Source: Bartonella harrusi (GTDB lineage Bacteria; Pseudomonadota; Alphaproteobacteria; Rhizobiales; Rhizobiaceae). From it: a DNA stretch of 64,000 nucleotides. Each line of letters starts with the position of its first letter. The first letter of the stretch is position 1. Below are positions 1,986 to 60,981 of this stretch, piece by piece. Made by a program: the position numbers and the translations under genes. The notes beneath the pieces were generated by a model. It saw only the letters and a list, made by a program, of their open reading frames with translations. It was not told where the DNA came from and did not search any database. The stretch lies in contig NZ_CP101114.1 of NCBI RefSeq assembly GCF_024297065.1, positions 1,614,501 to 1,678,500 on the forward strand, in the 5' to 3' direction.

Positions 1986-2285
1986 ACCAAAGCGAGTAGT
2001 TTTAAGATAACACTATAAACTTTAAGACAAAGTGGCTCAGGTTTCGGTGGCTCAGGTTTCGGTGGTCTAGGCTCCGGTGATTCAGGTTCCAGTGGCCCAA
2101 GTTTCGGTGGTCCAGGCTCCGGTGGCCCAGGTTCCGGTGGCTCAGGTTCCGGTGGTCCAGGCTCCGGTGGCTCAAGTTCCGGGGGGGCAGGCTCCGGTGG
2201 CTCAAGTTCCGGGGGGGCAGGCTCCGACTGTAAATCTTAAAACAAGGCTGTAAATTGAATATGGGGCTGTAAAAACAAGCATCCT
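1919..2285 (+). repeat. Autotransporter 3' end plus downstream DNA, copy A
   Basis: The last ~65 bases of the autotransporter gene, its stop codon, ~45 bases of flank, the 15-bp VNTR and a short trailer (GGCTCCGACTGTAAATCTTA) recur at about 2776-3150, offset 857 bases at the coding end. Copy A is attached to the intact gene. Confidence 0.85.
2031..2227 (+). repeat. 15-bp VNTR block 1
   Basis: About thirteen imperfect copies of a 15-bp unit close to GGCTCAGGTTCCGGT follow the autotransporter stop codon. The unit is a multiple of three, so open frames in it (Val-Ala-Gln-Val-Pro forward, His-Arg-Ser-Leu reverse) are artefacts. I treat it as non-coding. It is much more GC-rich than its surroundings. 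Confidence 0.85.
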
Positions 2286-2404
2286 CTATCCTTCGTTTTC
2301 ATCCCCTCTCCTGTAAACAGAAGAGCCACGTTTTTTGGCGCTTCTGTTGAAGAGGCATTAAGGAAATTATCTTTACTCGTCGATAAAAAGAAAAGGTAGC
2401 ATAA

Positions 2405-2760
2405 CACGCTGCCTTTAAAGAGATATCTCTCAGTGCACCCAAGCCCATTTCACAATGCCACCCGTGAATAGTATAGCGTAAAATCCACGAACCACCACCA
2501 TATCTTTACGTTTATCAAGGTACAAGCCGGCCCTATCATATTCTTTACCGCCCCCCAATGTTGCAAGACACCTTGGTATTGAGACGATTCTTTAAAGGCA
2601 TTTTTACACCTTTCTTCTCTCTCTTTTATCCACGCGATAATCTCACTTGTAATGTGCAAGGGGATGGTTTTGATTGATCCAACATAAGCAGGTGTGGAAT
2701 GTTTTGCAATGAGAGAACCTTAGAATATTCGAGGTTCTCATTCAATAGGTGAAACAATGA
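2405..2760 (-). pseudogene. Integrase N-terminal remnant and its repeat flank
   Basis: On the minus strand this stretch is a decayed copy of the integrase fragment best seen at 57948-58436. It shares the segments encoding SQYQ..LQHWG and PACT..NVKI and the following GRYGR/MGLGAL-type region, broken by stops. Its outer flank carries the recurring AATATTCGAGGTTCTCATTC and AATTATCGTTAT signatures. It separates the two copies of the autotransporter 3' end. Confidence 0.7.
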
Positions 2761-2775
2761 ATTATCGTTATCAAT

Positions 2776-3150
2776 CAAAAAACTACAAAAAACCGGCATA
2801 TCCGGAACAAACTTTTCTGGAGGTATCCGCTATCAGTTTTAAACCAAAGCGAGTAGTTTTAAGATAACACTATAAACTTTAAGACAAAGTGGCTCAGGTT
2901 TCGGTGGTTCAGGTTCCGAGGGGCAGGCTCCGGTGGCCCAAGTTCCGGTGGCCCAAGTTTCGGTGGCTCAGGTTCCGGTGGCCCAAGTTTCGGTAGCTCA
3001 GGTTCCGGTGGCCCAAGTTTCGGTAGCTCAGGTTCCGGTGGCCCAAGTTTCGGTAGCTCAGGTTCCGGTGGCTCAGGTTCCGGTGGCTCAGGTTCCGAGG
3101 GGCAGGCTCCGACTGTAAATCTTAAAACAAGGCTGTAAAAACAAGCATCT
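2776..3150 (+). repeat. Autotransporter 3' end plus VNTR, copy B
   Basis: This is an orphan copy of the final ~22 codons of the upstream autotransporter, its stop codon and flank, with its own VNTR block and trailer. No coding sequence is attached at its 5' side; instead it abuts the integrase repeat at 2760. It is best explained as a partial duplication. Confidence 0.85.
2889..3112 (+). repeat. 15-bp VNTR block 2
   Basis: About fifteen copies of the same 15-bp unit, here alternating in a regular pattern (GGCCCAAGTTTCGGT then GGCTCAGGTTCCGGT). The regular alternation suggests recent 30-bp expansion. The flanks match block 1. Confidence 0.85.
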
Positions 3151-3734
3151 TGTTATTCTTTATTCTGTACACTTTATCAAAAAGGGCGACAACACTGTAT
3201 TACCTTTTTCGTTTATAAATCCGAATCCCTCCATCATAGCCCTCTCTCTTTTACCAATAAAAAAGGCAAACTCTTTAAATTCCTTTGTTTTACATTGAAT
3301 AAAGCACGATATCACTTTCCTTGCTTCTTCATACGCGCCCCTCTTTGACGCATTGCACATTCAAATGATTTTCTCAAAATTTTTGGTTGCTCATTTGGTA
3401 GTGGTGCATAAAGCAATTACTTTTATTACCCCAATCCCTTAGCACTTTAACGCCAACAAGCTTTAGGCAGTGTTAAATGTTCTAAAATATCATCTTTATG
3501 ATCATTCAATCAATGGACACAGATTGATCAAGTGCGTTTTTTAAATACGTTTTTCTACTGGTTTACATAAGCATTTTTAAAATTTTCTGAAGAAGATTTT
3601 CAAACGATAGAGAACACACTACAACAACTTGTTTTGTTCTTTACAATAAATACATTATGATATAAATAGCGGTATCTGCACCACTAGGGGAATGAAGTAA
3701 ACATTAAAGGCATATCAACATTAAGGGCATATTT
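3151..3734. other. Gene-poor stretch upstream of an autotransporter
   Basis: I see no convincing gene here. The short minus-strand frame at 3160-3360 has no recognisable content. The last 100 bases should hold the promoter of the gene at 3735, and two near-identical runs (TTAAAGGCATAT and TTAAGGGCATAT) precede its ATG. Confidence 0.5.
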
Positions 3735-6041
3735 ATGTATAAGAAAAAATTTTTATTGTGTACAATTGCTGGAACATTCCTTTTCTCTCATTTAAATTCG
3801 ACTTACGCAGATCCTCCCCTTCATGAGATTCCCGCTGTAGATGTTAAAGAGGGAGAGGAAACTTTTAACAACGCTATTATCCTTAGTAGGTATATTGCAG
3901 CATACGTTAGTGGGCCACAATCAGTTGCTACGATTACAAAATCAATAATACTATCAGAAATGAATGCGTTAAATGTAGAAAAAGGTGGACGCATTAATGC
4001 GAAAGAGATTAATACGTCGTCACTGATACAAGGATTGAGTTTCTCAACTGGTATAATGAATATTGAAGATTCAGTCATAAATGTCAAAGGCAACTACTTA
4101 GGATATGGTTTGGTTTTTTCTACTGCGCCAAAGTCTTTTTTAGAGGCAGGGGGGAAGGAATTTAACAAGGCAATTCTTAGCAATACAAAAGTCTTGGTAA
4201 GAGATGGTACTGGTATTTTAGGACCATATGCAGATGCTGATATTGAACTTAAAAATTCAGAAATTCGTGCTGATGTATTATTGAGCAATGCTTTTTCAAA
4301 AGAAATTACTCCCACTTTTCTTACATTAACAACTGATAATTCCATTTTAGAAGGACGAGTAAGGGGTGTGCAAAAAAACAAAACAGTCTTTACTCTAAAG
4401 AATAACAGTCAATGGCACTTAAAGATTAGTCAAAAGGAAATAGGTAGAGGTATTAGCATACTTGACTACAAGCTTCTTGATATTAATCAACGAGCGCAAT
4501 CTAATATTTCAATACTGAATCTCGACAATAGCTCTATTATATTTAATGCACCAAATGCGCAAACCCAATATCATTACCAAACCTTGACTGTAGGAAGAGG
4601 AATACAAGCTGAAGAATCTGAGCCGCAAGAAACTCAGAGCTCTAATGAGGCAACAGTCTATAATGCGACAGGGGATGCAAAAATTTACTTTAATACTAAA
4701 TGGAGCGATGGAGAACCAAAAGAACAGCAAAAAACTGATCGTCTTTTCGTTTATGGCAATGTGTCAGGTACGACAAAAATCCATTTCACCAGCCTTTCAA
4801 AAGATGAGGATATAGAAGCAGCAGAGCATTCTATCCCCATGAATATGCGTGGACTGTCGCTCATTCAAGTTGCTGGAAAAGTCGATGAAAGTGCATTCAA
4901 ACTTGCAAACGGCTATGTCACAATGGGTGGATTACCTTACAAATATACGCTAAATGCCTATGGACCAACATCGAACCGTGGAAAAGCGAATATTACAGAA
5001 AGCTTCTTGCAAGAGGATAAAAATTTCTGGGATTTCCGTTTGCAAAAAGCCACGCTTGATTCTGAAGGAAAAATTAACGCCCTTGTTCCACAAGTAGCAA
5101 GTTATTTGGTGATGCCGAGCGCTCTCTTCTCTGCGGGATTTTCTGATGTAAACAATCACAATACATTGTTAGACAATATACGATCCAAAGCAGGTGAAAT
5201 GCAAAATAACAAAAACAAGGGAATTCATTTCTCTTCTTATGGAAATAAAAACACATTGTCTTCCAACCGCGATCCATTACAATATGGCTATGGTGCTGAC
5301 ATGCACTATGCAGCCTTACAAGCAGGTGTGACATTAGCAGCAATAGAAGATCAAGATATCACCACAAATTTGGGTCTTATGGGGACATATGGTAAATTGG
5401 CTTTCACTCCAAAAGATATGGAAGGCGCTGCGAAAAGCACACTGGATAAATGGTCCCTTGCTGCATATGGTAGCTTCCAGCATAAAAATGGCACACATCT
5501 CAATGCCTTCTTTTCCTACGGAGCGTTAAAGGGAAATATCACCACCGCTCTTATTGGAAACACCACAAAAGTGGATAATACAAAAACATTGAGCGCATCT
5601 GCTACCATTGGACAAAAATTGGCAACGGATGTTGAAGGATTGACTTTCGAGCCACAAGCACAACTTGTTTATCAACGTCTCATGTTTGGCACTCTTTCCG
5701 ATGTTGATGGTTTTGAAGTCAATATGGGCAATCCTCATCAGTGGTTAGTACGTATTGGTGGGCGTTTAACACAAATGGTCATGTCTACTGAAAAAAACAA
5801 CACCTTTGCTTTCTATGGCAAACTCAATCTCCTAAAGGCGTTTGGTGATAACACTACGATACAGATTGGTGATACGTTCCACCTCAATACTATGGGATCC
5901 TCACTTGAAGGTGGTGTTGGTATTAATGCACATTTATTACAAAATGTTGCACTTCATGCTGATATTAATTACCAACATAAACTCCAAAAAGCCGGCATAT
6001 CTGGAATGCGTTTCTCTGGTGGAATACAATACCGTTTTTAA
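3735..6041 (+). CDS. Autotransporter outer-membrane protein
   Basis: This is a complete 768-residue autotransporter. A Sec signal peptide covers about residues 1-25 (KKKFLLCTIAGTFLFSHLNS, then TYA before the likely cut). A beta-helical passenger runs to about residue 450. The translocator barrel spans about 455-768, starting near LVPQVASYLVMPSALFSAGF and ending in GGIQYRF with terminal Phe. No enzyme motif is visible in the passenger. It is paralogous to the neighbours at 3-1985, 7606-8751 and 8872-11976, with the barrel far better conserved than the passenger, as expected for surface antigens under diversifying selection. An adhesin or host-interaction role is inference. Confidence 0.92.
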   Translation: MYKKKFLLCTIAGTFLFSHLNSTYADPPLHEIPAVDVKEGEETFNNAIILSRYIAAYVSGPQSVATITKSIILSEMNALNVEKGGRINAKEINTSSLIQGLSFSTGIMNIEDSVINVKGNYLGYGLVFSTAPKSFLEAGGKEFNKAILSNTKVLVRDGTGILGPYADADIELKNSEIRADVLLSNAFSKEITPTFLTLTTDNSILEGRVRGVQKNKTVFTLKNNSQWHLKISQKEIGRGISILDYKLLDINQRAQSNISILNLDNSSIIFNAPNAQTQYHYQTLTVGRGIQAEESEPQETQSSNEATVYNATGDAKIYFNTKWSDGEPKEQQKTDRLFVYGNVSGTTKIHFTSLSKDEDIEAAEHSIPMNMRGLSLIQVAGKVDESAFKLANGYVTMGGLPYKYTLNAYGPTSNRGKANITESFLQEDKNFWDFRLQKATLDSEGKINALVPQVASYLVMPSALFSAGFSDVNNHNTLLDNIRSKAGEMQNNKNKGIHFSSYGNKNTLSSNRDPLQYGYGADMHYAALQAGVTLAAIEDQDITTNLGLMGTYGKLAFTPKDMEGAAKSTLDKWSLAAYGSFQHKNGTHLNAFFSYGALKGNITTALIGNTTKVDNTKTLSASATIGQKLATDVEGLTFEPQAQLVYQRLMFGTLSDVDGFEVNMGNPHQWLVRIGGRLTQMVMSTEKNNTFAFYGKLNLLKAFGDNTTIQIGDTFHLNTMGSSLEGGVGINAHLLQNVALHADINYQHKLQKAGISGMRFSGGIQYRF

Positions 6042-6103
6042 AAGATTGTAATATGATTTTTTAAACTATAAAGCAGCGCTGAAATATAACAGCGTTGTTT
6101 CTG

Positions 6104-6137
6104 TTTGACGCATTACAAATAAGCATAATGCGTCAAA
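6104..6137. terminator. Perfect 12-bp hairpin after autotransporter
   Basis: TTTGACGCATTA and TAATGCGTCAAA form a 12-bp perfect stem with a 10-nt loop, 60 bases after the stop codon. There is no strong U-run, so it may be a terminator or an mRNA 3'-end stabiliser. Confidence 0.5.
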
Positions 6138-6259
6138 AACTATATATTTTTCATCAAAAAGAAGACAATCTTTTGAGAAGAATCTTTAAGAAACCTTTAT
6201 TTATGCACAACCGCTTGTGCTTTATTTTGTTGTTATTTTAACCTCACGCATATCAGCAA

Positions 6260-7440
6260 CACCTTTGATTTAAGTGCTCAAATGCGCTATTCTCCCGAGG
6301 AACTTAAATATCCCCAAAGAAGTTTGAACAACGATCTAACAGCAGCAACCAATAACCATCAAACAACACATTCTTTCTTTTGCTACAGTTGGAAAAAGTC
6401 CCTCTTTCAAGGAAGCAATTCAAAATGATTGAGATCTGATGAAAACTCAAATGAACACCTATTACAACGATTTTCGTCTTTATGGATCTTGTGCTCATCA
6501 CAAGACATTGAAAAAATTTGGCAGTGCATATACAGACGCCTTAGCAAAACAATACAATCATGAGGTTTTGTATAGCATTCCAAGAGCAACAAATAAATAG
6601 CTTGAAAAGATGGTGTCTGATAGCATCAGATAATCCAACTCGTATTTCAGTCATAAACTTCGAGAGGGTATGGATAAAGTAGAAAAGATCATGAGCAGCT
6701 CTTTTTCAGGGATTGGACGCTATGGAACGCCTGATCGTATGGATGCGTTGCAAAAAGAACAGTGACTTTGTTTCTGCCCGTGCTATAGCAAACCAATATA
6801 ATCATGATATAGAATACATACTTTTCGCCAATGCAATACTTGCTGAATGCAATAAAAACCAATGAAAAGTGGTAGAGAAGGTCTTATAATAATAAAGCAA
6901 TGCAGCTACAAATGCTTTACAAAACACAATGAACGTGATGCCGATAACCAAAGACATATTGATGCGGAGTGCAAACAATGGGGAAGGCAAGACAATCGCA
7001 GCTGGAATGCACTGCAAAATAAAGCCGACCTACGACACAAAGCAATAGCAGTGAATAACGCTTTACAAGGACAAAACAAGGTGCTTTCCGATACCTTACG
7101 AGCAGAAGTAAAAAAGGCTTGGAACAACCGGTACGACAACAAAAATGGAGAGAGAAGGAAAACCTCAAATATCCTTTTCCTCACCTAAAGAGTATCAACC
7201 ACCTCTCATTGGCTGCAACACAGAAAAAGAACGTACTGTCAATCAATTCCATCCTACTCGTGCACCACAACATGAGGATAAAGAAAATTCATCCTCGATC
7301 ACAGATCATAAAAGTACTCTATCACCTAAAACAAATAAAAACACGCAACCGAATGTTGACGTCGATCAAAGTTCTATCAACTTATTGATTTTAAAGATAA
7401 ATAATATTTTCAACTTGTATCATAACTCCGAATATTAAAA
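6260..7440 (+). pseudogene. Decayed prophage-like gene(s)
   Basis: Several short plus-strand frames in changing phase read as fragments of one or two old genes. Examples are ALAKQYNHEVLYSIPRAT near 6540-6590, the similar AIANQYNHDIEYILFANA near 6785-6840, and a charged segment (NNALQGQNKVLSDTLRAEVK) near 7050-7110 that continues in another frame from 7145. The two related segments imply an internal repeat, and the style suggests a phage structural protein. I cannot name the family, and no intact gene remains. Confidence 0.4.
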
Positions 7441-7605
7441 GATTCTTCCCTTTCAATGCTGCTTATATTCAATCAATAAAAATAACTTATTTGCACGTTC
7501 CAAGCAGTGCTGGTGTGTAGATAAAAAGCGTTAGAAAGGAGTAAACGCTGCTTATAAATCGTTCTAATACAAAAACTGTCGCAACATCAAAAGCTCATAC
7601 ACAGT

Positions 7606-8751
7606 ATGATGGTGCTAGTTTACAACACCCCCTCTTCATCATCGAAAACCACTTTTAAAACTTCACCAGAAGCTTCTATGACTTTGCCCTCAAAGGTTGA
7701 AACTGCAAACCCAACCACCGCAAATACTGAAAAATCATCTAAGCTTATGGACGATAAAGAAACCGCAACTTTATCGTATAGTTCTCATGTTTCTGAAGCA
7801 AAAACGCTCACACCACAAATGGCACGCTTTTTGGTGATGTCTCATGCGATGTTCGCCGCTGGATTTGCCGATGTAAAGGCGCAAAATATATTGTTAGACA
7901 ACATACGAATAACAATGTTTGAAGCAAAGGACCCTAAAGAAAAGGGGATTTTTCTATTGACTTATGGCAACAAACTGAAACGATTTGCCAATCCCCATCC
8001 ATCACAAGAGAGCGCTCATGTGGATATTCGCTATGCAGCCTTACAAGCAGGCATTACATTAGCCGCGAGAGAAAATCAAAATATCACCACAAGTTTTGGT
8101 CTTATGGGGGCATACGGGAAACAGGCTTTCATCATAACAGACAGAGAAGGTGCTGAGAAAACGAGCGTTGATAAATGTCCCTTACGGCATATGGAAACAT
8201 CCAACATGACAGTGGCCTCTATACAAATACATTTCTCTCTTATGGAATTTTCAAGGGCAATATCACCACTGCCTTCATCGGAAAGACTAAAAAAGCAAAT
8301 GATACAAAAACAGTGCGTGTCTCTGCTAGCGTTGGTCAAAAATTACCAACCAATTTTCAAGGAATAACACTTGAACCACAAGCACAGCTTGTTTATCAAC
8401 GTCTCTTGCTTGGCACGCTTTCACAAACCGATAACTTGAAAATGAACCGACGCAATCCTTCTCAAGGACTGTTGCGTATTGGTGGACATTTAACACAAAA
8501 TAAAGGTCATGCCGTGTCCTTTTATAGTAAATTATACGTTATTGAAACTTTTGAACATAAGAAGACCATAGAAATGAGTGAAAGTTCTCCACCGACTGCT
8601 ATGGGAACTGCAATTGACGGTGGGATGGGTATGGAACGCGTATTTATCGCAAAATATCGCGCTTCATGGCGCTATCAGTTATCAACATAATCTCAAAAAA
8701 GCGGGCATATTTGGAATAAATATCTCTGCTGGAATGCGTTATTGTTTTTAA
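7606..8751 (+). pseudogene. Autotransporter remnant, frameshifted
   Basis: The barrel of a fourth autotransporter is readable but broken. The first frame (7606-8367) holds a Ser/Thr-rich stub and barrel strands from LTPQMARFLVMSHAMFAAGF. At about 8173 the text GATAAATGTCCC replaces the expected DKWSL codons by lacking one G, and the barrel continues in the frame of 8175-8690. A second shift near 8633 moves the end to a third frame finishing in AGMRYCF with a stop at 8749-8751. Almost all the passenger and the signal peptide are missing, so this is a true relic even if one shift were a sequencing error. Confidence 0.85.
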
Positions 8752-8871
8752 AAATACTTTAATTCACATCTTGAAAGAGAGAGCGTGCCCTATATTTTTC
8801 TTTTTGTAATTTAAAAAGAAACATAATGGATTAAAAAATAAGAGGGGTACAGATATTGAGGAATATATTTA

Positions 8872-11800
8872 ATGATAAACAAAACCTTCTTACTCTACAC
8901 ACTTTCTAGCGTTCTCTTTTACTCTTCCAGCCTTTCCTATGCCCTCTCTGTAACATCTCCATCATCGACTGAAAATCTTTCCTCTCCACAACCTCGTTCT
9001 AGGAGCTTAAGAACGTCCCCTGAACAAAATATATCGACAATCACACACTCTCCAACGACAATAGCTACGATGGGAATACCTGGATCTACGGAGATGAGAA
9101 CTCCAAGTAAGAGATCGACAGATTCAAGAAGCAATACAATATCCAAAAATTCTTCTAAAGGAACTGAAGGGACTTCTTCTCAAAGCCATAAGAAAAAAAC
9201 ACCACCTCAGAGTTCAAAAACTGTTAATACAACCTCTTCTGGATCAGAGCTTCAGTTTGCTCGAATGAGTACAGAAACACCCAATACTGAAACAAATTCT
9301 ATAGGAAGTGGAACGCCATATCCACCTGTACCTAAACTCTCAGAAAATGAAACAACAACGGGAGGCGGGAAATCGAGGAGACGCCAAGGCGTCTCCCTTT
9401 CTTCCACCTCCCCTGTCACGGGAGAAAATTCAATACCCCCTTCGATGCCCCCACAATCAGTGTCAGGAAGTTCAGTATCGGTACCAAAAATACCTGCAAA
9501 ACCAATACTTGCACAGCAAGAAGCTGCACAACCAGTGCCCGCAAAACCACTACCTGTACTGGAAATACCTGAAAGACCAGAGCTTCTACAACGAGAAACT
9601 GCACAACCAACACCCATGAAACCAGCATCTATACAAGAAAGGCCTGTAAAACCTGAGCTTGAAAAACTGGTACCAGAACAACCAGAAAAGCAGCCTGAAC
9701 AACCAAAACAAATTGAGAGCTTTCAATCTGGTGTTGTAGTGCGAGGCGGTGAAACTTTAACCCTGCACAATCCTAAAATTTATGACAAATATCTTGCTGT
9801 AAATGTAGAAGGAGAAAATTCACTCCTAAAAATGAATGGGGGAACAGTGACTGCGGATTTTGTTGCGCTTAATACATTAAGAGGTGGAGCGATTGATGCT
9901 ACGGATATTCTTGTAACAGCACAAACAGCTGGTTTATTCAGCGGAAATGGAACAATTAAGCTTACGGATTCGACCGTACGTGTTATGGGCCATTATAGCG
10001 CTTATGGTGTGGTTCTCAAAGATGATCTATACTATAGATCCAAAAACCAGAATATCCATAATGCTGAAGAAAAAGCCGACGCTCCCCAAGAAGAGCAAAA
10101 CGTTGCTAACAGAATATTTTTGGAGAATACAAAGCTTTTTGTTGAACATGGTGCAGGCATTGCTGCTTATGGATCATCCATCAAAAATGAAATCAGCCTC
10201 AAAAATTCACAAATCTATGCTGATATTTTGTTAAAAAATGACAGTGGTCCTGCCTCTCCCCTTATGTTAACTGCAAATCACTCCCTTTTGGAAGGACGCG
10301 TAAGAGCGTTAGAAGCGAGCAAAACAGTTTTTGATCTAAAAGACAATACCACATGGCTTTTAAAGGCAAATAAAAATATCATAAATAATGATAGTAACAT
10401 AGATTCACCCGTCTCTGAGCAATTTTCTCTTGATCGAAAGTCATATTCTAAACTTTCCATGCTAAACCTGACAGACAGCACGATTATGTTTGAAAAGCCA
10501 AGTGAGGGGGGGCATTACCAGACTCTCTTTATAGGCTATAATGAACAACAAGAGGATAAAAATCCCAATGTACCAGCAGTTTATAGTGCTACAGGTTCCG
10601 CAGCAATTCATGTGAACGCAAAATGGAGTAGTCTTTCTCCAATAACAAAACAAAAAACCGATCGAGTTCTGATTGATGGTGATGTATCAGGCACGACCAT
10701 GGTTCATGTGAATCTTTTGGAAAAGGATAAAAAAAGAGCCGATAGCCGTTCTGTTTGGGAAGAACACATGGATTCACTCCCTTTAGAAACGCATGGGATT
10801 TCAGTCATTCAAGTTTCTGGAAAAGCGAATGAAAATTCCTTCAAGTTAGCCGGAGATTATATGACGATGGGTGGTTTGCCTTATAAATATACGCTCACGG
10901 CCTATAAACCGGGAACATCTCATGCAAGCCAAAACCTCTTTGGAAAAAATGATCAAAATTTCTGGGATTTCCGATTACAGAATGCCTATCTTGATAAGGA
11001 GAGAAAGATCAGGGCGCTTTTGCCACAGGTCGCAAATTATTTGGTCATGCCCAACGCTTTATTTTCTGCTGGACTTACCGATGTCAACAATCAAAACACG
11101 CTTTTAAACAATATGCGTTCAGTCATGTTTGAAGCAGAGAATAATAAAAAAGGCGCTCTCTTCTTGTCTTCTTATGGTGAGAAAGTCACCTTATCTTCCA
11201 ACCGTGATCCACTACACTATGGCTACGATGCCGGTGTGAACTATACTGCTTTGCAATTAGGTACCGTCTTGGCCGCACTAGAAGGCAAAGATATCCAGAC
11301 ACATGTTGGTCTTTTCGCAACATATGGGAAACTTGACTTCACACCAAAGGGTATGGAAGATTCTGATAAGACGATGCTTGATAAGTGGTCGCTCACAGCT
11401 TATAGCGGAATCCAGCACAGCAGTGGTATATATGTAAACGCACTTCTTTCCTATGGCGCGCTGAAAGGAAATATTACGACAGCTCTTGTTGGCAATGCCG
11501 CAAAATTAGATGGAACTAAAACAGTAAATGTCTCTGCTACCATTGGTCAACAATTAGCAACGGGTTCTAAGGGGTTGGTGTTTGAACCGCAAGCACAATT
11601 GATTTATCAAAATCTCTTTTTCAAGAGACTCTCAGATGCCAATGGTTTAGAAGTTGATATGGACAATCCACGTCAATGGTTGGTACGTATTGGTGGGCGT
11701 TTGACACAAGCTATCACCACAGAAGAAGAAACCAATGCTTTTTCTTTCTATGGTAAATTGAATATCCTCAAGGCTTTTGGTGAAAATGAAACAATAAAAA

Positions 11801-11976
11801 TTGCGGATACATTTTATCTTGATCCTACCGGTTCTTCAATCGAAGGAGGCATTGGTGTTAATGCCTCTCTCTCTGAGAATATTGTTCTCCATGGTGATAT
11901 TAGCTATCGGCAGAAACTTCAAAAAGCCGGTGTCTTTGGAACCAGTTTTTCTGGTGGAGTTCGTTATCATTTTTAA
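8872..11976 (+). CDS. Large autotransporter with Pro-rich linker
   Basis: This is a 1034-residue autotransporter. The signal peptide spans about residues 1-25 (NKTFLLYTLSSVLFYSSSLS). A Ser/Thr-rich low-complexity region follows to about 190. A proline-rich stretch at about 200-280 is built on repeats like PAKP, ERPEL and QPEQPKQ. A beta-helical passenger covers about 285-700, and the barrel runs from about 705 (LLPQVANYLVMPNALFSAGL) to the terminal GGVRYHF. The Pro-rich linker is absent from its paralogues and could act as a surface spacer. Passenger function is not predictable. Confidence 0.92.
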   Translation: MINKTFLLYTLSSVLFYSSSLSYALSVTSPSSTENLSSPQPRSRSLRTSPEQNISTITHSPTTIATMGIPGSTEMRTPSKRSTDSRSNTISKNSSKGTEGTSSQSHKKKTPPQSSKTVNTTSSGSELQFARMSTETPNTETNSIGSGTPYPPVPKLSENETTTGGGKSRRRQGVSLSSTSPVTGENSIPPSMPPQSVSGSSVSVPKIPAKPILAQQEAAQPVPAKPLPVLEIPERPELLQRETAQPTPMKPASIQERPVKPELEKLVPEQPEKQPEQPKQIESFQSGVVVRGGETLTLHNPKIYDKYLAVNVEGENSLLKMNGGTVTADFVALNTLRGGAIDATDILVTAQTAGLFSGNGTIKLTDSTVRVMGHYSAYGVVLKDDLYYRSKNQNIHNAEEKADAPQEEQNVANRIFLENTKLFVEHGAGIAAYGSSIKNEISLKNSQIYADILLKNDSGPASPLMLTANHSLLEGRVRALEASKTVFDLKDNTTWLLKANKNIINNDSNIDSPVSEQFSLDRKSYSKLSMLNLTDSTIMFEKPSEGGHYQTLFIGYNEQQEDKNPNVPAVYSATGSAAIHVNAKWSSLSPITKQKTDRVLIDGDVSGTTMVHVNLLEKDKKRADSRSVWEEHMDSLPLETHGISVIQVSGKANENSFKLAGDYMTMGGLPYKYTLTAYKPGTSHASQNLFGKNDQNFWDFRLQNAYLDKERKIRALLPQVANYLVMPNALFSAGLTDVNNQNTLLNNMRSVMFEAENNKKGALFLSSYGEKVTLSSNRDPLHYGYDAGVNYTALQLGTVLAALEGKDIQTHVGLFATYGKLDFTPKGMEDSDKTMLDKWSLTAYSGIQHSSGIYVNALLSYGALKGNITTALVGNAAKLDGTKTVNVSATIGQQLATGSKGLVFEPQAQLIYQNLFFKRLSDANGLEVDMDNPRQWLVRIGGRLTQAITTEEETNAFSFYGKLNILKAFGENETIKIADTFYLDPTGSSIEGGIGVNASLSENIVLHGDISYRQKLQKAGVFGTSFSGGVRYHF

Positions 11977-12011
11977 AAGAAAAGCCAGTATCAATTTTAG
12001 TAAAAAACAGC

Positions 12012-12038
12012 AAAAAGCAGCACAACGTGCTGCTTTTT
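12012..12038 (+). terminator. Intrinsic terminator
   Basis: AAAAAGCAGCAC, a 3-nt loop and GTGCTGCTTTTT form a 12-bp stem with a T-run inside the 3' arm, 36 bases after the autotransporter stop. The A/T symmetry makes it potentially bidirectional. Confidence 0.8.
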
Positions 12039-12368
12039 AGCATTAAATTTCTTTTTCTCAAAACACTCTTATAACAATACTAAAATGATAACGATGCTAA
12101 AAAACATCCACTAACAGAGAAAGACTTTTTTCATTACAAAAGAGGAATATACACTTTCCCTCTCTCCCAAATCACGCTCTTATCGTAAGGAGCAGATTTT
12201 TTTTGCAAGATAAAAATCAAAATTGCAAGAAATTATGACAGTAAATATAAAAACACTGAAAGGAGATGACCCCCATACATCCGACAGAACCGACACGCTC
12301 CGTCATTCTTTTCATCCCTGAGAACGTTCAAGCATTTACCAAACGATATTGACCGAAAAAGAATCTGA

Positions 12369-12866
12369 TCAATCTGTTTCTTTTATGCCGCCAGCACCCT
12401 GCATAGCTTGCGAAAGATTGTTTACTGCGGTCAAATGGCTTTGCAGCAATTCGCTATTACGATTTAATTTTTGCTGTAAGTCGGATAATAAATTCTCAAC
12501 CTCTTGGACAATCTCTTCATTCATGTAGCGTTTTATATCACTCATAGATTTATTCAAATCACGCAGACCACGTATTTTACATAAATTTATTTCTTCATAA
12601 TCTGGAACACTACTGCTTTCCAGCATATTGCTTTCATAATCGACCACTTGTGCCAACCCATTAACAGCAGCTACAAATTTTGTCATTGCCCATTCACGAT
12701 CAATAAGATCATTATTCAGGACTTTTGCTTTTGATGCAAAACTATCATCACCGTATTGCATTACAGACATTTTTATTTCCCCTTCCACAATCTTGTTCAC
12801 TCTTGTTCTCAAATAAGGGAGATCAAACAGCCTCTCTTCAATGTTGATACACTCAATTGCATTCAT
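12369..12866 (-). CDS. Hypothetical coiled-coil protein
   Basis: This is a 165-residue soluble, acidic protein of no family I recognise. It has no signal peptide or membrane segment. The C-terminal half (about 95-155) is strongly heptad-like (EIVQEVENLLSDLQQKLNRN), predicting a coiled coil. No strong ribosome binding site is seen before the ATG. It is isolated, with ~390 bases of empty DNA to its left and more than 2 kb to its right. It may be accessory phage or island content; a genuine gene is likely but unproven. Confidence 0.55.
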   Translation of the reverse strand: MNAIECINIEERLFDLPYLRTRVNKIVEGEIKMSVMQYGDDSFASKAKVLNNDLIDREWAMTKFVAAVNGLAQVVDYESNMLESSSVPDYEEINLCKIRGLRDLNKSMSDIKRYMNEEIVQEVENLLSDLQQKLNRNSELLQSHLTAVNNLSQAMQGAGGIKETD

Positions 12867-50641: not shown

Positions 50642-51332
50642 AAAACGAGATCAAAACAGCGATAAGCAAACACAAGCGTGAGGAGAATACTCCTGCGCTG
50701 TCACAAAACCAAATCCCAAAACCACATCACACCATCTATAAAGACCACGAAAAAAGAAGATTTTGAGCACTTGATTATTGGCACTTTCTTTACAAAATCA
50801 AAGAAAAAGAGCAAAATGACCTATTCTCCACAAAAGCATCATACAGACGAAATTCTAAAACTTTCTATTGCGATAAAAAATTGATTTATAATGATAATTT
50901 AGTGTTTTATATGTTAAATAAGATTCTCAAAGACTCTTAAGATTTTTTCATTTCTATTCCCCTTAGATTAAATGAAAAGAAACATTCCCTTGCACCAAAA
51001 GGAGAGATATGTGAACAAAAACCGTTTGAGAAAGGCATGAAAACGCCTTTTAATGAATCGCCTTCATGCAAGAGCTGTTGCAACATTGAGAGCTAGCAAA
51101 GAAAATAATGATACTGACCTGTTACTTCATAAACGTAGAAAATATAACTAAAATATATAGTTTATATATGTGATTTTATTAAGAAGTTGATCGTATAAAT
51201 AAATGCTAAATTATAACTTTTCTTATTACCTCTGTAAAATTAAATAATTTTCTATTGTATACTCTCTACGTTAGTGTAGTGCGCTTCATGTTGTGTACAC
51301 AATAAGTTAAATATTAAATTTGGGAGATAATT
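50642..51332. other. Gap with integrase-linked repeat
   Basis: Bases about 50880-51100 match the plus-strand lead-in and start of the integrase repeat at 57858-58090 (TTGATTTATAATGATAATTT, AAAACCGTTTGAGAAAGG, GAGCTGTTGCAACATTG), heavily mutated. The last ~200 bases are very AT-rich and should hold the promoter of the next gene cluster. Confidence 0.6.
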
Positions 51333-51407
51333 ATGGAAAGTGCATATGAATTATTTATAACGGAATATTTAGAAGAAGACATTCATACTACCAGCCTAAT
51401 ACTCTAA
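51333..51407 (+). CDS. 24-residue peptide ORF (leader or precursor)
   Basis: ATG at 51333, after a strong GGGAG ribosome binding site at ~8 bases, opens a 24-codon frame: MESAYELFITEYLEEDIH, then TTSLIL and TAA. It is acidic with two Tyr and a Thr-Thr-Ser tail. A perfect hairpin begins 1-2 bases after its stop, and the SpeD-like and radical SAM genes follow. It could be a regulatory leader peptide or a short precursor for the enzymes downstream. I do not recognise a family. The coding claim rests on the ribosome binding site and context only. Confidence 0.45.
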   Translation: MESAYELFITEYLEEDIHTTSLIL

Positions 51408-51408
51408 A

Positions 51409-51447
51409 ATTATATTGGAAGAGGTGTCTAGCCTCTTCCAATATAAT
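51409..51447 (+). terminator. Perfect 16-bp hairpin after peptide ORF
   Basis: ATTATATTGGAAGAGG, loop TGTCTAG, CCTCTTCCAATATAAT: 16 of 16 pairs. No U-tract follows (ATGAATTAACGG), so it is more likely an attenuator, processing site or stability element giving higher peptide expression than a simple terminator. Confidence 0.75.
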
Positions 51448-51469
51448 ATGAATTAACGGGGGAATTATA

Positions 51470-51855
51470 ATGGATAATGAAGGTTATCATTATTTTCTGG
51501 ATGGAGTTGTAAATGATCTAAAGCTCTTGAGAGATGAAAAAACCTTATATTCTTTCTTAAAGTAAGAAAAAACACAAAAATGAATATTCTAGGATTCATG
51601 TCACACAAATTTACAACAGAGGAACAAAGTGTGACAGGTTTTTTTTTATTGAGTGAATCACATTTATCATTCCATACATATCCAGAGAGTAATTACATAA
51701 GTATTGATTTATATACTTTTGGACAAGGTTACAGCTCTGCAATTGAAACTATCAAAGCTCAATGGAAACATACTGGACAATTATTTGTTAGATCCTTCAA
51801 AAGAGATAAGCATTTGTTGAGGACCAATAGCTCTTCAGCTTGTAACTTAAATTAA
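51470..51855 (+). CDS. SpeD-like pyruvoyl decarboxylase, frameshifted
   Basis: Related to bacterial S-adenosylmethionine decarboxylase (class 1B, ~120-130 residues). The first frame (51470-51565) gives GYHYFLDGVVNDLKLLR, like the family's GRHxxxD start. The rest is in the -1 frame (ATG 51580 to 51855): SHKFTTEEQSVTGFFLLSES, then HLSFHTYPESNYISIDLYTF. The Glu-Ser self-cleavage pair and following His are kept. The family's catalytic Cys in the DVFTCG motif is Phe here (DLYTFG). One extra A near 51560 would fuse the frames at normal family length. It may act on another substrate, be inactive, or be a pseudogene. Confidence 0.7.
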
Positions 51856-51869
51856 GAATGAAGGTGGTC

Positions 51870-53260
51870 ATGAATATCAAAAATAATGGTTTATTTAAGT
51901 TTGATTGTCAGATTCCTGTGTATAATTTTTCTTTCCAAGTCAAGGAAGGTGTATTATCGATAAGCCAGTATCTGATGTTATTGTAAATAGTAATGACGTT
52001 CTTGATTCAAGAGCTTTGTATTTTCATATTCCTTTTTGTGAAACACTCTGTACTTTTTGTCCTTTTACTAAAGGTGGTTATAAAGGCGAAACTCTAATTA
52101 ATAATTACACGGATGCTTTAATTAAAGAAATAGAATTAAAAGCAAATTTTATCGACTACCACACTGTTCCTGTTCGTGCAATTTTTTTTGGAGGTGTAAC
52201 TCCATCTTTATTGTCTCCATCTAATATTTTAAAAATAGGAGCAGCTATACATAAGCATTTCAAGATAGCATCTCATTGTGAATTTTCTTTTGAAATTGAA
52301 ATAAAAAGTCTTACCGAGAAAAAAGTAATTGCTATGAAAGAAATAGGAGTTACGCATCCACGGTTTGGTCTTCAAACTTTTAACCCCGAATGGAGAAAAC
52401 TCTTTAATCTTACATCTACATACGAACACATTAAGTTTGCAGCTAGTATATTAAATGCGAATTTTAAGTACGTACTTTTTGATATATTATACGGTATGAA
52501 CGGACAGGATGAAGAAGAGATAATTCAAGATCTTGAAATGGCCGTATCTCTTGGTACGTCTAATATAGATATATACCCAATTGACAATGTTGTGACTCAA
52601 GCAAAATTACATAAAGCTATCGAAAATCGTGGTTTAGGTCTTACTACAGCAACAAGAAAATTTTCTATGAATATGCTAATAGATGCTTACATGAGAAATA
52701 AGGGATTTATGCCTCATAATGGTCATGGTTATATTCGTACCTCAAATGTGTCCTCTGATATAGTTACGGATGAATATAGTTTTGTATATCATGAGCATGT
52801 TTATGGATATTCAAATTATGACTTGCATGGTTTTGGAGTAAATGCCATATCATCAATACGTGAACACGTAATAACAAATTTTTCTAATCGTAATGCTTAC
52901 ATTACAGCCGTTAATAGCGAAAAAATGCTAGCAAATGTTAGTAAGCACTCTCCAATTCTAGATGAGATAAAGCCAATCATCCTACGATTACCTTATCATG
53001 GTGTAGTGAGAAAATCTTTAATAAAAATGGACTTTGTACCTAGTAGTATTTCTGCTAAACTAGATGTTCTTTTATCGAATAATCTTATAGTGGAAGATGA
53101 TTATTCTTGGCAACTTACGAAACTAGGCTGGTATTGGTATACTAATATTATGTTTTGGCTTATGCCAGAAGAAGATCAACGTATTTTAAAGGCATTTATT
53201 GCAAAAAAACTGGATAAAACAGGTAGATTTATAGCTAAAAAAGAGCTTATGTATGTATGA
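51870..53260 (+). CDS. HemN/HemW-like radical SAM enzyme, frameshifted near start
   Basis: A radical SAM protein with cluster motif FCETLCTFCPF (CX3CX2C), FFGGVTPSLLSP, GVTHPRFGLQTF and LFDILYGMNGQDEEE as in the HemN/HemW family. The C-terminal winged-helix-like region ends near LTKLGWYWYTNIMFW. The ATG at 51870 has a good AAGGTGG site, but its frame ends after ~39 codons; a -1 shift near 51959 joins VKEGVL to IDKPVSDVIVNSNDVL and the main body. Initiation at the TTG at 52016 would begin only a few residues before the cluster. HemW-like proteins chaperone haem or use porphyrins; the pairing with a SpeD-like gene suggests something different. Confidence 0.75.
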
Positions 53261-53691
53261 TAATTTCTTGCTTTAGCAAGAAATTTAAAGCATATCTTCT
53301 TTCCAAAGTAATGAGTGTGCTTTGCTGTCTGCAGGCTAAAATAATATTATCAACACTTGTTTAAAAAACATCTTCTATCTGTCGTCAAAAATAGTGAAAA
53401 TTACAGCATTCTTAACAAAAATAGATGCTGTTCCCTCTTTACTTGTGTTGACTTTAGCTATTCTTATCAAAAAATATTTATAAAAGAATAAATCTAATAT
53501 TGTATTATAAAAAGTTAATAACAGTATCGCACTAATGCGAAAAAAGAGAGATATTTATTGTACTAATATAGAAAATTTTTATATTTGTTAATTTATTAAG
53601 ATATTTATTTAAATATATGATTCATTTGAAGTTTATATCACCAATTTTATTAAAGATATATAACTTTAATTATAGAAAAGTTTAATATCGG
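53261..53691. other. AT-rich spacer before MFS gene
   Basis: 431 bases, extremely AT-rich, with no gene seen. Probably carries a separate promoter for the transporter. Confidence 0.5.
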
Positions 53692-54936
53692 ATGATTGGT
53701 ATGAATTTATTTTTAAAAAAAAGTCCATTATTGCTTTTTTTATCTCTCTTTATTTCTAAAATTGGTGATTATACTTATGAAGTTATTTTTGTTTTACTTG
53801 TCTTAGAATTAACGGATAACTCCTTTTTTACAGGTCTTGTGTATTTTTTTCGCTTTATCCCTTTTCTCTTTTTTGGCCCTATAGGGGGGTGGTTAGCGGA
53901 TAATTTTTCTTTGAAGAAAAATATGATTTTCAGTGAATTTGTGAGATTATTAGCCTCATTATTCGTTTTTATAACCTATATAACAGGGAATGCACATATT
54001 ATTGTTCTTATTTTTGCAGCAATGTTTACAACAATAGGAAGGAGTCTTTTTCAACCAAGTTTTCAAGCTGCCATTCCGAGAATATTTTCAATAAATGATC
54101 TGACAAAAGCAAATAGCATTTCACAAATTATAGAAGAAACTGCATCCCTCATTGGCCCTCTCGTTTGTTCAGTATTGCTTTTTTTAGCCAATAAATCGAC
54201 AGTCCTCATTTTTGATTTTTTTACCTATTTTCTATCTATTATCTTGTTGTTGAATCTCATGAATTTCAATTCAAGTGAGAATAAATCATTCTATTTTATA
54301 AAAATCTATCGCGAAACAACTTTCTATCTTAAACATATTTCTACAAAAAATAAGAATTTATTTATTACGCTGGTTGGCTCATCCTTTGCTATTCTCTTTA
54401 CTGGTGCAATTTTAAGATTTTTAATTCCAGCATTTATTCTTTCTCAAGGTGGAGAGGAAAGTTTTGTGAGTTCTCTATTTTCTCTCATTGCTGTTGGAAC
54501 TCTTCTAGGTGGTTTTTTATATAGTAAAATTATATTCAATATTACATCCTTGAAGCTCATGGTATTTTGGCTTCTCTACGGGATTACTCTGTTTATTATG
54601 CCTTTAGCTGCAATGCTTTCTTTAAAACTCCTTCTCGTGCTCGCATTTGTTTTGGGATTTATTGGTGCATTTGTCGATATTAGTTTAGTCTCAGCTATTC
54701 AATTATACTCTCGTCGTGAAGATTTTGGGAAGAGTTTTGGAACTTTTTCAACTTTAGCAAACTGTGCTGAAGCAGTGTCTGGCTTTATTGCCGGACTTTT
54801 TGCACTCGTGGGATTAGTGAGCTCTTTTTTAGCTATGTCTGCATTCATTATTTCCACTGGAATGATTGGAATTATAAAAATGAAGAAAAATAAACAGAGA
54901 ACACCCCTTAACACTCCAAGTGATACCGATCATTGA
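53692..54936 (+). CDS. MFS exporter
   Basis: A 414-residue major facilitator with about 12 transmembrane helices. The inter-helix 2-3 signature is GPIGGWLADNFSLKKN and helix 4-5 has TIGRSLFQPSFQAAIPRIF, fitting the EntS/macrolide-efflux branch. The reading frame is intact. It probably exports a small molecule or peptide, possibly the product of the SpeD-like/radical SAM genes upstream. Its last ~180 bases and downstream DNA are tandemly duplicated. Confidence 0.88.
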   Translation: MIGMNLFLKKSPLLLFLSLFISKIGDYTYEVIFVLLVLELTDNSFFTGLVYFFRFIPFLFFGPIGGWLADNFSLKKNMIFSEFVRLLASLFVFITYITGNAHIIVLIFAAMFTTIGRSLFQPSFQAAIPRIFSINDLTKANSISQIIEETASLIGPLVCSVLLFLANKSTVLIFDFFTYFLSIILLLNLMNFNSSENKSFYFIKIYRETTFYLKHISTKNKNLFITLVGSSFAILFTGAILRFLIPAFILSQGGEESFVSSLFSLIAVGTLLGGFLYSKIIFNITSLKLMVFWLLYGITLFIMPLAAMLSLKLLLVLAFVLGFIGAFVDISLVSAIQLYSRREDFGKSFGTFSTLANCAEAVSGFIAGLFALVGLVSSFLAMSAFIISTGMIGIIKMKKNKQRTPLNTPSDTDH

Positions 54937-55453
54937 TCTCTTTGAGGTCTCCATGCTGTTTCTTTTTCTAAATGGTTCTTATCTCTGAAAACTTTAAAAG
55001 AATGGAAGAAATTCTGCTCTCTCTACCTTCATCTCAAACAAATACGCTTTAACAAGCCGGCATCATTATTCTATTTGCTAATTCTGAAATGTTACGACAG
55101 CCTTAGCGAACTCTGCTGAAGCAGTGTCTGGCTTTATTGCCGGACTTTTTGCACTCGTGGGATTAGTGAGCTCTTTTTTAGCTATGTCTGCATTCATTAT
55201 TTCCACTGGAATGATTGGAGTTATAAAACTGAAGAAAAATAAACAGAGAACACCCCTTAACACTCCAGGTGATACCGATCATTGATCTCTTTGAGATCTC
55301 CATACTGTTTCTTTTTCTACATGGTTCTTATCTCTGAAAACTTTAAAAGAATGGAAGAAATTCTGCTCTCTCTACCTTCATCTCAAACAAATACGCTTTA
55401 ACAAGCCGGCATCATTATTCTATTTGCTAATTCTGAAATGTTACGACAGCCTT
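54754..55453. repeat. 349-bp tandem duplication of MFS 3' end and flank
   Basis: Copy 1 (54754-55104) holds the last ~60 codons of the MFS gene and ~165 bases of flank; copy 2 (55103-55453) repeats it at a constant 349-base offset with only a few substitutions. Copy 2 has no start of its own and is non-coding debris. The duplication is recent. Confidence 0.92.
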
Positions 55454-56584: not shown

Positions 56585-56870
56585 ATCATTTTCTTTGCCG
56601 GCCCCCAATGTTGCGACAGCCCTTGGTATTGAGACGCTTCATAACAGGCATCTTATCTCCTTTCTTGTACAACTTTTATCCACACGCCCCCCCCAAGACA
56701 TATAAGCAAGTGATTTTACTTGCTTCAAGATGAGATGAGATGAGATGAGATGAGATGAGATGAGATGAGATGAGATGAGATGAGAAAATCCTACAATATT
56801 GGGGGTATGATACAAGTTAAAAAACATGATTTATCTTTATAAATCAATCTATTATCATTATACAAAAATA
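56585..56870 (-). repeat. Integrase remnant repeat with microsatellite
   Basis: The minus strand keeps the integrase fragment's QYQGLSQHWG-encoding part (GGCCCCCAATGTTGCGACAG region on plus), CTTTTATCCACACGCCCCCC, then the TGAGA run and the AATCCTACAATATTGGGGGT tail typical of this repeat family. Confidence 0.75.
56731..56785. repeat. (TGAGA)11 microsatellite
   Basis: Eleven perfect TGAGA units inside the integrase-linked repeat. Related copies have single AAGATGAGAGAATC text here, so the run expanded locally. Confidence 0.95.
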
Positions 56871-57857: not shown

Positions 57858-58436
57858 AACATTGATTTATAACGATAATTTACTTTTTTGCCTATTGAAT
57901 AAGATCCCCGAATATTGTAAGATTCTCTCATCTCAAATCCCCTTATCTTGAATCAATCAAAACCATCCCTTTGCACGTCACAAGTGGGGTTGGTATGTGG
58001 GGGTGAAAACCGTTTAGAAAGGAACAAAAATGCCTCTTATGAATCGTCTCAATACCAAGAGCTGTCGCAACATTGGGGGCCGGTAAATAGTATGATGGTG
58101 CCAGCTTGCACCTTCATAAGTGTAAAGATGGGGGATGCTCAATGGCTTTATCGCTATACCATTCACGGGCGGCGGCGTGAAATGGGCTTGGGTGCTTTAA
58201 GAGATGTCTCTTTAAAACAAGCCCGTGAATTGGCAACTGGGTGGCGTTCTGTTTTACGTGAGGCTTGTAATCCCATTAAAGAACGTGAGAAACAAAAGCG
58301 TGAAGCGATGCGTAATCTGCATTACTTAAAAGATATCGCTCTCGATGCTTTTGAAAGCCGTAAAGCTGAACTCAAAAATGATGGTAAAAATGGAGATTGG
58401 TTTTCATCTTTACAACTTCATATTCTCCCTAAATGA
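57858..58436 (+). pseudogene. Integrase N-terminal fragment (best copy)
   Basis: The repeat lead-in (57858-57950) precedes a 162-codon frame from 57948. After a non-conserved start it encodes the N-terminal arm-type-binding part of a P4/DUF4102-like tyrosine recombinase: YTIHGRRREMGLGALRDVSL, KQARELATGWRSVLREACNP and a Lys-rich helix to ALDAFESRKAEL. The catalytic domain (Arg, His, Tyr) is missing, so it is non-functional. It is the reference copy for the family dispersed through this window. Confidence 0.85.

Positions 58437-58861: not shown

Positions 58862-60981
<2,120 letters not shown>

Follow-up and report, generated by a model that had tools for sequence, protein, structure and literature searches.

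The window, a 64,000-nucleotide stretch of the 2.27-Mb genome of Bartonella harrusi, carries a group of 5 elements, all on the forward strand (Table 1): a 24-codon open reading frame (ORF) preceded by GGGAGA, a perfect hairpin, a SpeD-like gene, a gene for a radical SAM enzyme, and a gene for an MFS transporter. A sequence-only reading had proposed them as a cassette, and ORF scanning, folding, and Pfam comparisons bear out the order and strand of the elements, the short ORF with its ribosome-binding site, the hairpin, and the 3 protein identities (PF02675, 56 bits against a cut-off of 25, for the SpeD-like sequence; PF04055, 64 bits against 29.5, for the radical SAM sequence; and an MFS ORF). 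Not as that reading had described them, however, the SpeD-like and radical SAM genes are each split into 2 frames. The G+C content is 26% to 33% across positions 51000–54999, as opposed to 39% to 40% in the preceding 3 kb. A stretch of 300 bases running from the 3′ end of the MFS gene onward has a second copy downstream.

Table 1. Features of the cassette locus, in positions of the window.
Feature	Position	Strand	Basis or state
24-codon precursor-like ORF	51333..51407	+	leader part retained; C-terminal Trp and Cys of relatives gone
Perfect hairpin, 17-bp stem, between peptide ORF and SpeD gene	51409..51447	+	folding
SpeD-like gene, first piece, ending in a stop after 31 codons	51470..51565	+	aligns with start of intact L021 SpeD
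SpeD-like gene, second piece, different frame	51580..51855	+	Phe at the catalytic Cys position
N-terminal piece of the radical SAM gene	51870..51986	+	matches start of intact L021 protein
Main open frame of the radical SAM gene, with its earliest start codon at 52016	51926..53260	+	CxxxCxxC present; SAM-site GGG changed to GGV
MFS transporter, open frame	53692..54936	+	ORF, Pfam, NCBIfam
97% copy of 54749–55048 (MFS gene 3′ end and beyond)	55098..55397	+	repeat comparison

The cassette copy in the window is dead, its frames broken and essential residues lost, which makes it modest news for this genome. All 28 intact relatives aligned retain the catalytic Ser, His, and Cys of class 1b SpeD, the Cys within the motif TCG; the window sequence reads DLYTFG at this place, so that what had been put forward as a family signature is a mark of damage. 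Divided between 2 frames and with Phe in place of the Cys, the sequence no longer qualifies as a class 1b AdoMet decarboxylase, and its TIGR03330 score of 55 bits falls short of the cut-off, 75.65. The radical SAM sequence departs at 2 of the 73 comparable columns among those invariant in 54 relatives (I69L and G119V, the latter removing the invariant Gly of the SAM-binding motif), compared with 0 of 77 in each of the intact Bartonella copies, L021 and L022. The window peptide ends in Leu and has neither Cys nor Trp left. The decay looks recent, since dN/dS over the shared radical SAM frame is 0.13 and 0.17 between the window and the 2 intact copies and 0.10 between the intact copies themselves.

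Family matches at E ≤ 1e-30 occur in 20 of 71 same-genus genomes, and cassette-type copies (at least 84% identity) in 7 of the 71, a recurrence beyond chance. Three of these copies (G013, G001, and G011) are full length, each with an unbroken SpeD, a 472-amino acid radical SAM protein, and an MFS protein; the 4 damaged ones are that of the window, the fragmented copies of G024 and G023, and that of G1580, in which the N-terminal portion of the radical SAM gene is absent along with the DNA preceding it. The remaining same-genus matches are 34% to 45% identical and represent a sibling type. Of 25 same-genus genomes, 5 gave a SpeD match, each of them a cassette carrier; the sibling-type genomes G017 and G019 gave none.

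In 25 of 35 related loci, a Trp-ended ORF of 22 to 29 residues lies 45 to 105 bases before the first cassette gene, a count taken from a listing of ORFs selected by their ending or start. A scan blind to the ending, covering ORFs of 15 to 40 codons that follow a Shine–Dalgarno-like site and lie 10 to 160 bases before the gene, recovered Trp-ended ORFs in 24 of 33 loci (L049 and L123 being left out) versus 2 of 509 control regions, drawn from upstream of other ORFs of at least 150 codons in the same DNA; L044 has the peptide with a weaker Shine–Dalgarno-like site. Loci L045, L046, L048, L049, L123, L125, L126, L159, L169, and L170 lack the Trp-ended peptide, and across 18 loci that lack one at its usual position or belong to the sibling type, we found no Trp-ended ORF elsewhere except one in L028. 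The loci are not all independent, since L022 and L023 have identical peptides, as do L164 and L166. An alignment of 16 precursors shows M1, F8, and the terminal W to be invariant and the middle to vary. Pairwise comparisons of the peptide gave 278 synonymous and 131 nonsynonymous codon changes among 9 Pseudomonas loci (mean dN 0.09 and dS 1.1, over those 28 of 36 pairs for which the values were finite, near saturation) and 127 synonymous and 238 nonsynonymous changes among 8 Burkholderiaceae loci (mean dN 0.26 and dS 1.05, from 24 of 28 pairs and likewise near saturation). Judged by this pattern, the peptide ORF is conserved and under selection as a protein. As in RiPP systems, a gene-encoded putative precursor adjoins candidate modifying enzymes in 25 of the 35 loci; the window peptide itself is without the Trp. 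All 24 relatives that were folded have a hairpin after the peptide stop codon, with differing stem sequences and z values of −0.4 to −5.7 (100 simple shuffles each), above −2 in L151, L157, L164, and L166. The window hairpin has z = −3.2 over 151 nt and −6.9 over 63 nt (simple shuffles).

SpeD is present in 29 of the 35 loci, including all 25 with a Trp-ended peptide; it is missing from L045 (a short contig), L048, L049, L123, L125, and L126. The gene order is SpeD, radical SAM, MFS, and ornithine decarboxylase in 9 Pseudomonas loci and Xenorhabdus; radical SAM, SpeD, MFS, and ornithine decarboxylase in L158; radical SAM, MFS, and SpeD in 10 Burkholderiaceae loci; and SpeD, radical SAM, P450, and MFS in Glaesserella. 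The persistence of the set through reshuffled gene order argues for a functional link among the cassette genes. Ornithine decarboxylase genes occur in 12 of the 35 loci and P450 genes in the Glaesserella and Klebsiella loci, and the Bartonella cassette represents a minimum of 2 enzymes. The cassette showed neither a protease nor any known leader-binding domain. A 132-amino acid ORF beside the Alicyclobacillus enzyme, SpeD-like by eye, matches neither Pfam nor the SpeD profile.

Spermidine synthase (PF01564) was matched in none of the 8 Bartonella genomes tested (control, 11 of 14), which agrees with the earlier view that ordinary spermidine synthesis is not at issue here and would leave decarboxylated SAM without its usual consumer in this genus. 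Outside Bartonella, 5 of 7 carrier genomes or records do have the synthase.

The radical SAM protein of the cassette combines the CxxxCxxC motif with the HemN fold, assigned among the families that a structure look-up listed, and thereby belongs to the HemN-like superfamily. The HemN/HemW-like label given to it earlier holds for the fold, but the window frame from position 52016 falls below the curated NCBIfam cut-offs of 3 models, scoring 165 bits of 400 for ChuW/HutW (TIGR04107, its best match), 114 of 325 for HemN, and 102 of 205 for HemW. Pfam finds the Radical_SAM domain only, and the SPASM match that would place the protein with the mycofactocin/PQQ type is absent. At the second-SAM site, Tyr60 and Asp214 are retained, and the positions of NocN Arg153 and Ser225, which hold the methionine end of the second SAM, are changed. 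This change, to His/Asp, maps to little more than one event in the tree, so that its link with SpeD may reflect mere descent. Loci L045 and L125 have His/Asp without SpeD in the available DNA; the other exceptions are L048 (Asn/Asp, without SpeD), L046 (Lys/Glu, with SpeD), and L126 (Arg/Asp, without SpeD). According to PMC12871812, HemN does not hydrogen-bond directly with the methionine end of its second SAM, and the Arg may therefore not matter. Phe115 was dropped as a mark of decarboxylated SAM use because HemW-like outgroups also have Phe there.

Intact cassettes occur in Bartonella, Pasteurellaceae, Xenorhabdus, Pseudomonas, and Burkholderiaceae. A protein search gave 2,926 matches, and the 120 matches listed include Pantoea, Gallibacterium, Xenorhabdus, Photorhabdus, Vibrio, Aliivibrio, Pseudomonas, Paraburkholderia, Trinickia, and Pandoraea. 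In drawn samples that each include the centre genome, matches at E ≤ 1e-60 were found in 9 of 398 genomes from the genus of P. gingeri and 12 of 349 from the family of Trinickia, and in the centre genome alone for the order of Vibrio bivalvicida (1 of 394) and the phylum of the window (1 of 398). Matches in E. coli genomes are short, covering only 2% to 3% of the query. Bartonella is nested in the tree among Glaesserella, Gallibacterium, Pantoea, and Klebsiella (support 100/98), and plasmid-borne relatives are found in Glaesserella and Xenorhabdus, and also in Klebsiella, there without SpeD and the peptide. Together with the low G+C content, these placements indicate that the Bartonella cassette was likely acquired horizontally, by transfer between classes. 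A phage origin was set aside, as the viral contigs and phage records searched contained no relative.

We read the locus as a decayed RiPP-like cassette, the HemN-fold enzyme of which would use decarboxylated SAM, supplied by SpeD, to modify the C-terminal Trp of a precursor peptide for export by the MFS protein; on these sequence comparisons, we put the probability of this reading at about 0.5. The neighboring SpeD, whose catalytic residues are conserved in the relatives, would make the decarboxylated SAM, and this would occupy the second SAM site of the radical SAM enzyme, since the first SAM chelates the iron–sulfur cluster via its carboxylate. As the invariant last residue, the Trp would be the one modified; it could also be needed for recognition rather than modified. 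The group transferred may be one carbon, an aminopropyl, or a larger unit, the product would leave the cell through the MFS protein, and the hairpin may set the ratio of peptide to enzymes. The sequence-only reading had sketched a SAM-derived modification of a peptide or metabolite followed by export, an outline that fits the intact relatives, but the decay of the window copy had escaped it. It had also named separate occurrence of the enzymes, an unconserved peptide ORF, and uniform inactivation in Bartonella as grounds against itself; the enzymes co-occur in other genomes, the peptide is conserved in relatives, and damage, in 4 of the 7 cassette-type copies, is not uniform. New points are the conserved precursor with its terminal Trp, the SpeD gene that constantly accompanies it, the HemN-fold enzyme whose second-SAM site is altered, and the transfer between classes. 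Among the matches listed for open PubMed Central, no paper described SpeD together with both a precursor peptide and a radical SAM enzyme. Decarboxylated SAM is known mainly for donating aminopropyl groups in polyamine synthesis (PMC10491745), and its use by a radical enzyme would be new chemistry, if the reading is true. The Trp-ended peptide also offers a means of searching for clusters that currently carry annotations as heme enzymes and spermidine genes.

The short ORF might instead be a regulatory leader peptide, acting by attenuation or arrest and sensing Trp, ornithine, or polyamines, with the hairpin as a terminator and the enzymes acting on a small metabolite. A short ORF followed by a hairpin, in some relatives with a T-run (e.g., L042 and L122), has the layout of an attenuator, ornithine decarboxylase genes occur in 12 of the loci, and the ornithine decarboxylase genes of E. 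coli have a leader peptide. The N-terminal part of the peptide, with F8, is nevertheless conserved along with its end, a single Trp codon is present, the gene that comes first after the peptide varies between SpeD and radical SAM, and in the window no T-run or other terminator-like site follows the hairpin and Rfam gave no match. We consider such a leader unlikely. Rather unlikely, too, is that the peptide is a carrier only, from which the C-terminal Trp, like the Tyr of mycofactocin, would become a small molecule bearing a polyamine-like group made by ornithine decarboxylase and SpeD. Conservation limited to the very end and the leader would suit a carrier, as would the ornithine decarboxylase and P450 genes, but Bartonella and most Burkholderiaceae loci have neither of these genes, and no protease was seen in the cassette.

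A third alternative, in which neofunctionalisation has turned the cassette SpeD into an ornithine or arginine decarboxylase and the radical SAM enzyme uses plain SAM, draws on the hallmark by which, according to PMC10407285, such enzymes were revealed, namely SpeD without spermidine synthase. Bartonella fits this hallmark, with a class 1b SpeD like SpeDA/SpeDC. We find the alternative improbable: a PLP ornithine decarboxylase in addition to SpeD, as in 12 loci, would be redundant. Unlike SpeDA/SpeDC, the cassette SpeD adjoins the peptide and the radical SAM gene rather than polyamine genes. A Pro follows HT[YW] in all 28 aligned SpeD sequences and may or may not be the diagnostic Pro of PMC10407285. 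That the radical SAM protein is a ChuW/HutW-like heme-degrading enzyme of an iron-uptake cassette is very improbable, for although ChuW/HutW is the closest NCBIfam model and a TonB receptor query matches L042, L044, and L123, the score lies far below the curated cut-off, the TonB match is confined to these 3 of 35 loci, and the peptide and SpeD would be left unexplained. A metallophore pathway, considered for the TonB receptor and siderophore transporter near the same 3 loci, was dropped on the same count.

Under the preferred reading of a Trp-modifying cassette, several known systems offer partial parallels. In the mycofactocin and PQQ pathways, too, a radical SAM enzyme adjoins a short precursor whose C-terminal aromatic residue is invariant, whereas the cassette enzyme has the HemN fold without a SPASM match and is partnered by SpeD and the MFS protein. 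Microcin C has, like the cassette, a very short peptide gene and an MFS exporter. Its SAM-derived aminopropyl group (PMC10491745) would be shared if the cassette transfers an aminopropyl unit, but there it comes from MccD/MccE, with neither a radical SAM enzyme nor SpeD, and the cassette precursors, unlike that of microcin C, end in Trp. The class C radical SAM methylases NosN/NocN, TbtI, and C10P, as PMC12871812 describes them, share with the cassette enzyme the HemN fold, the CxxxCxxC motif, and the Tyr that in the methylases stacks on the second SAM, and they act on natural-product precursors (peptides for NosN/NocN/TbtI); the cassette differs from them in its SpeD partner, the altered residues at the methionine end of the second SAM, and the very short Trp-ended precursor.

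Among 10 cassette-bearing Pseudomonas-group genomes, compared with 10 cassette-free genomes of the same sample, 9 carry beside the cassette a DNA polymerase IV gene 64% to 100% identical to that of L044. A second copy, of approximately 40% identity, lies elsewhere in 8 of these 9 genomes and in all 10 cassette-free ones. A dedicated translesion polymerase beside the cassette suggests that the product may be DNA-damaging in Pseudomonas. Tentatively, and with considerable doubt, the cassette could represent a new RiPP class in which a HemN-type enzyme grafts a unit of decarboxylated SAM onto a C-terminal Trp, the Pseudomonas product damages DNA, and the cassette polymerase IV protects the producer. 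In the Burkholderiaceae and Bartonella loci compared, no gene groups with the cassette DNA polymerase IV. The DinB encoded near the cassette on the Xenorhabdus plasmid, considered as the same part, was set aside, since at 44% identity to its L044 counterpart it is about as distant as ordinary chromosomal copies. The tenth cassette-bearing genome, G511, has the copy of approximately 40% identity only.

SpeD also accompanies the radical SAM family outside the peptide cassette: a Vibrio bivalvicida locus (L159) carries both, and no Trp-ended peptide ORF was found in it. Proteins of ATP-grasp-like appearance, judged by eye, are encoded there as well. In the same genus as the window, a genome with a sibling-type radical SAM relative (G019) harbors a different RiPP-like cluster (L024), comprising a ThiF-like protein, an aKG-HExxH peptide beta-hydroxylase scoring 66.8 bits against a threshold of 40, and 2 MFS proteins, together with 2 proteins that by eye look JmjC/cupin-like.

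Features at and around the cassette and its relatives.
Feature	Locus	Position	Strand or remark
Two radical SAM proteins, SpeD, MFS	L159 (V. bivalvicida)	1196-9400	
RiPP-like cluster other than the cassette, with diverged radical SAM relative	L024 (G019)	277-8941	
Extra DNA polymerase IV (DinB) gene	L044 (Pseudomonas group)	11724-12809	After cassette
Truncated recombinase running into radical SAM gene	L194 (G1580)	6823-8308	Reverse
Direct repeat, 300 bases, copies 97% alike	Window	54749-55048 and 55098-55397	
Tandem run, 5-base unit ATGAG, intergenic	Window	56729-56785	By eye
ORF resembling tyrosine integrase N-terminal part	Window	57948-58436	By eye
Two ORFs, putative partial copies of groEL 3' end	Window	58862-59486	Minus; by eye

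In the Pseudomonas-group comparison, the extra DinB gene was found in 9 of the 10 cassette-bearing genomes and in none of the 10 cassette-free ones; L042 and L151-L157 carry it at the position matching that in L044.

The damaged copy in the same-genus genome G1580 has lost both the peptide and SpeD, and its radical SAM gene lacks the N-terminal part. In the window, the MFS gene (53692-54936, plus strand) has its 3' end duplicated by the direct repeat. The integrase-like ORF is possibly a scar of mobile DNA near the cassette. The putative partial groEL copies adjoin groEL itself (59338-60981).
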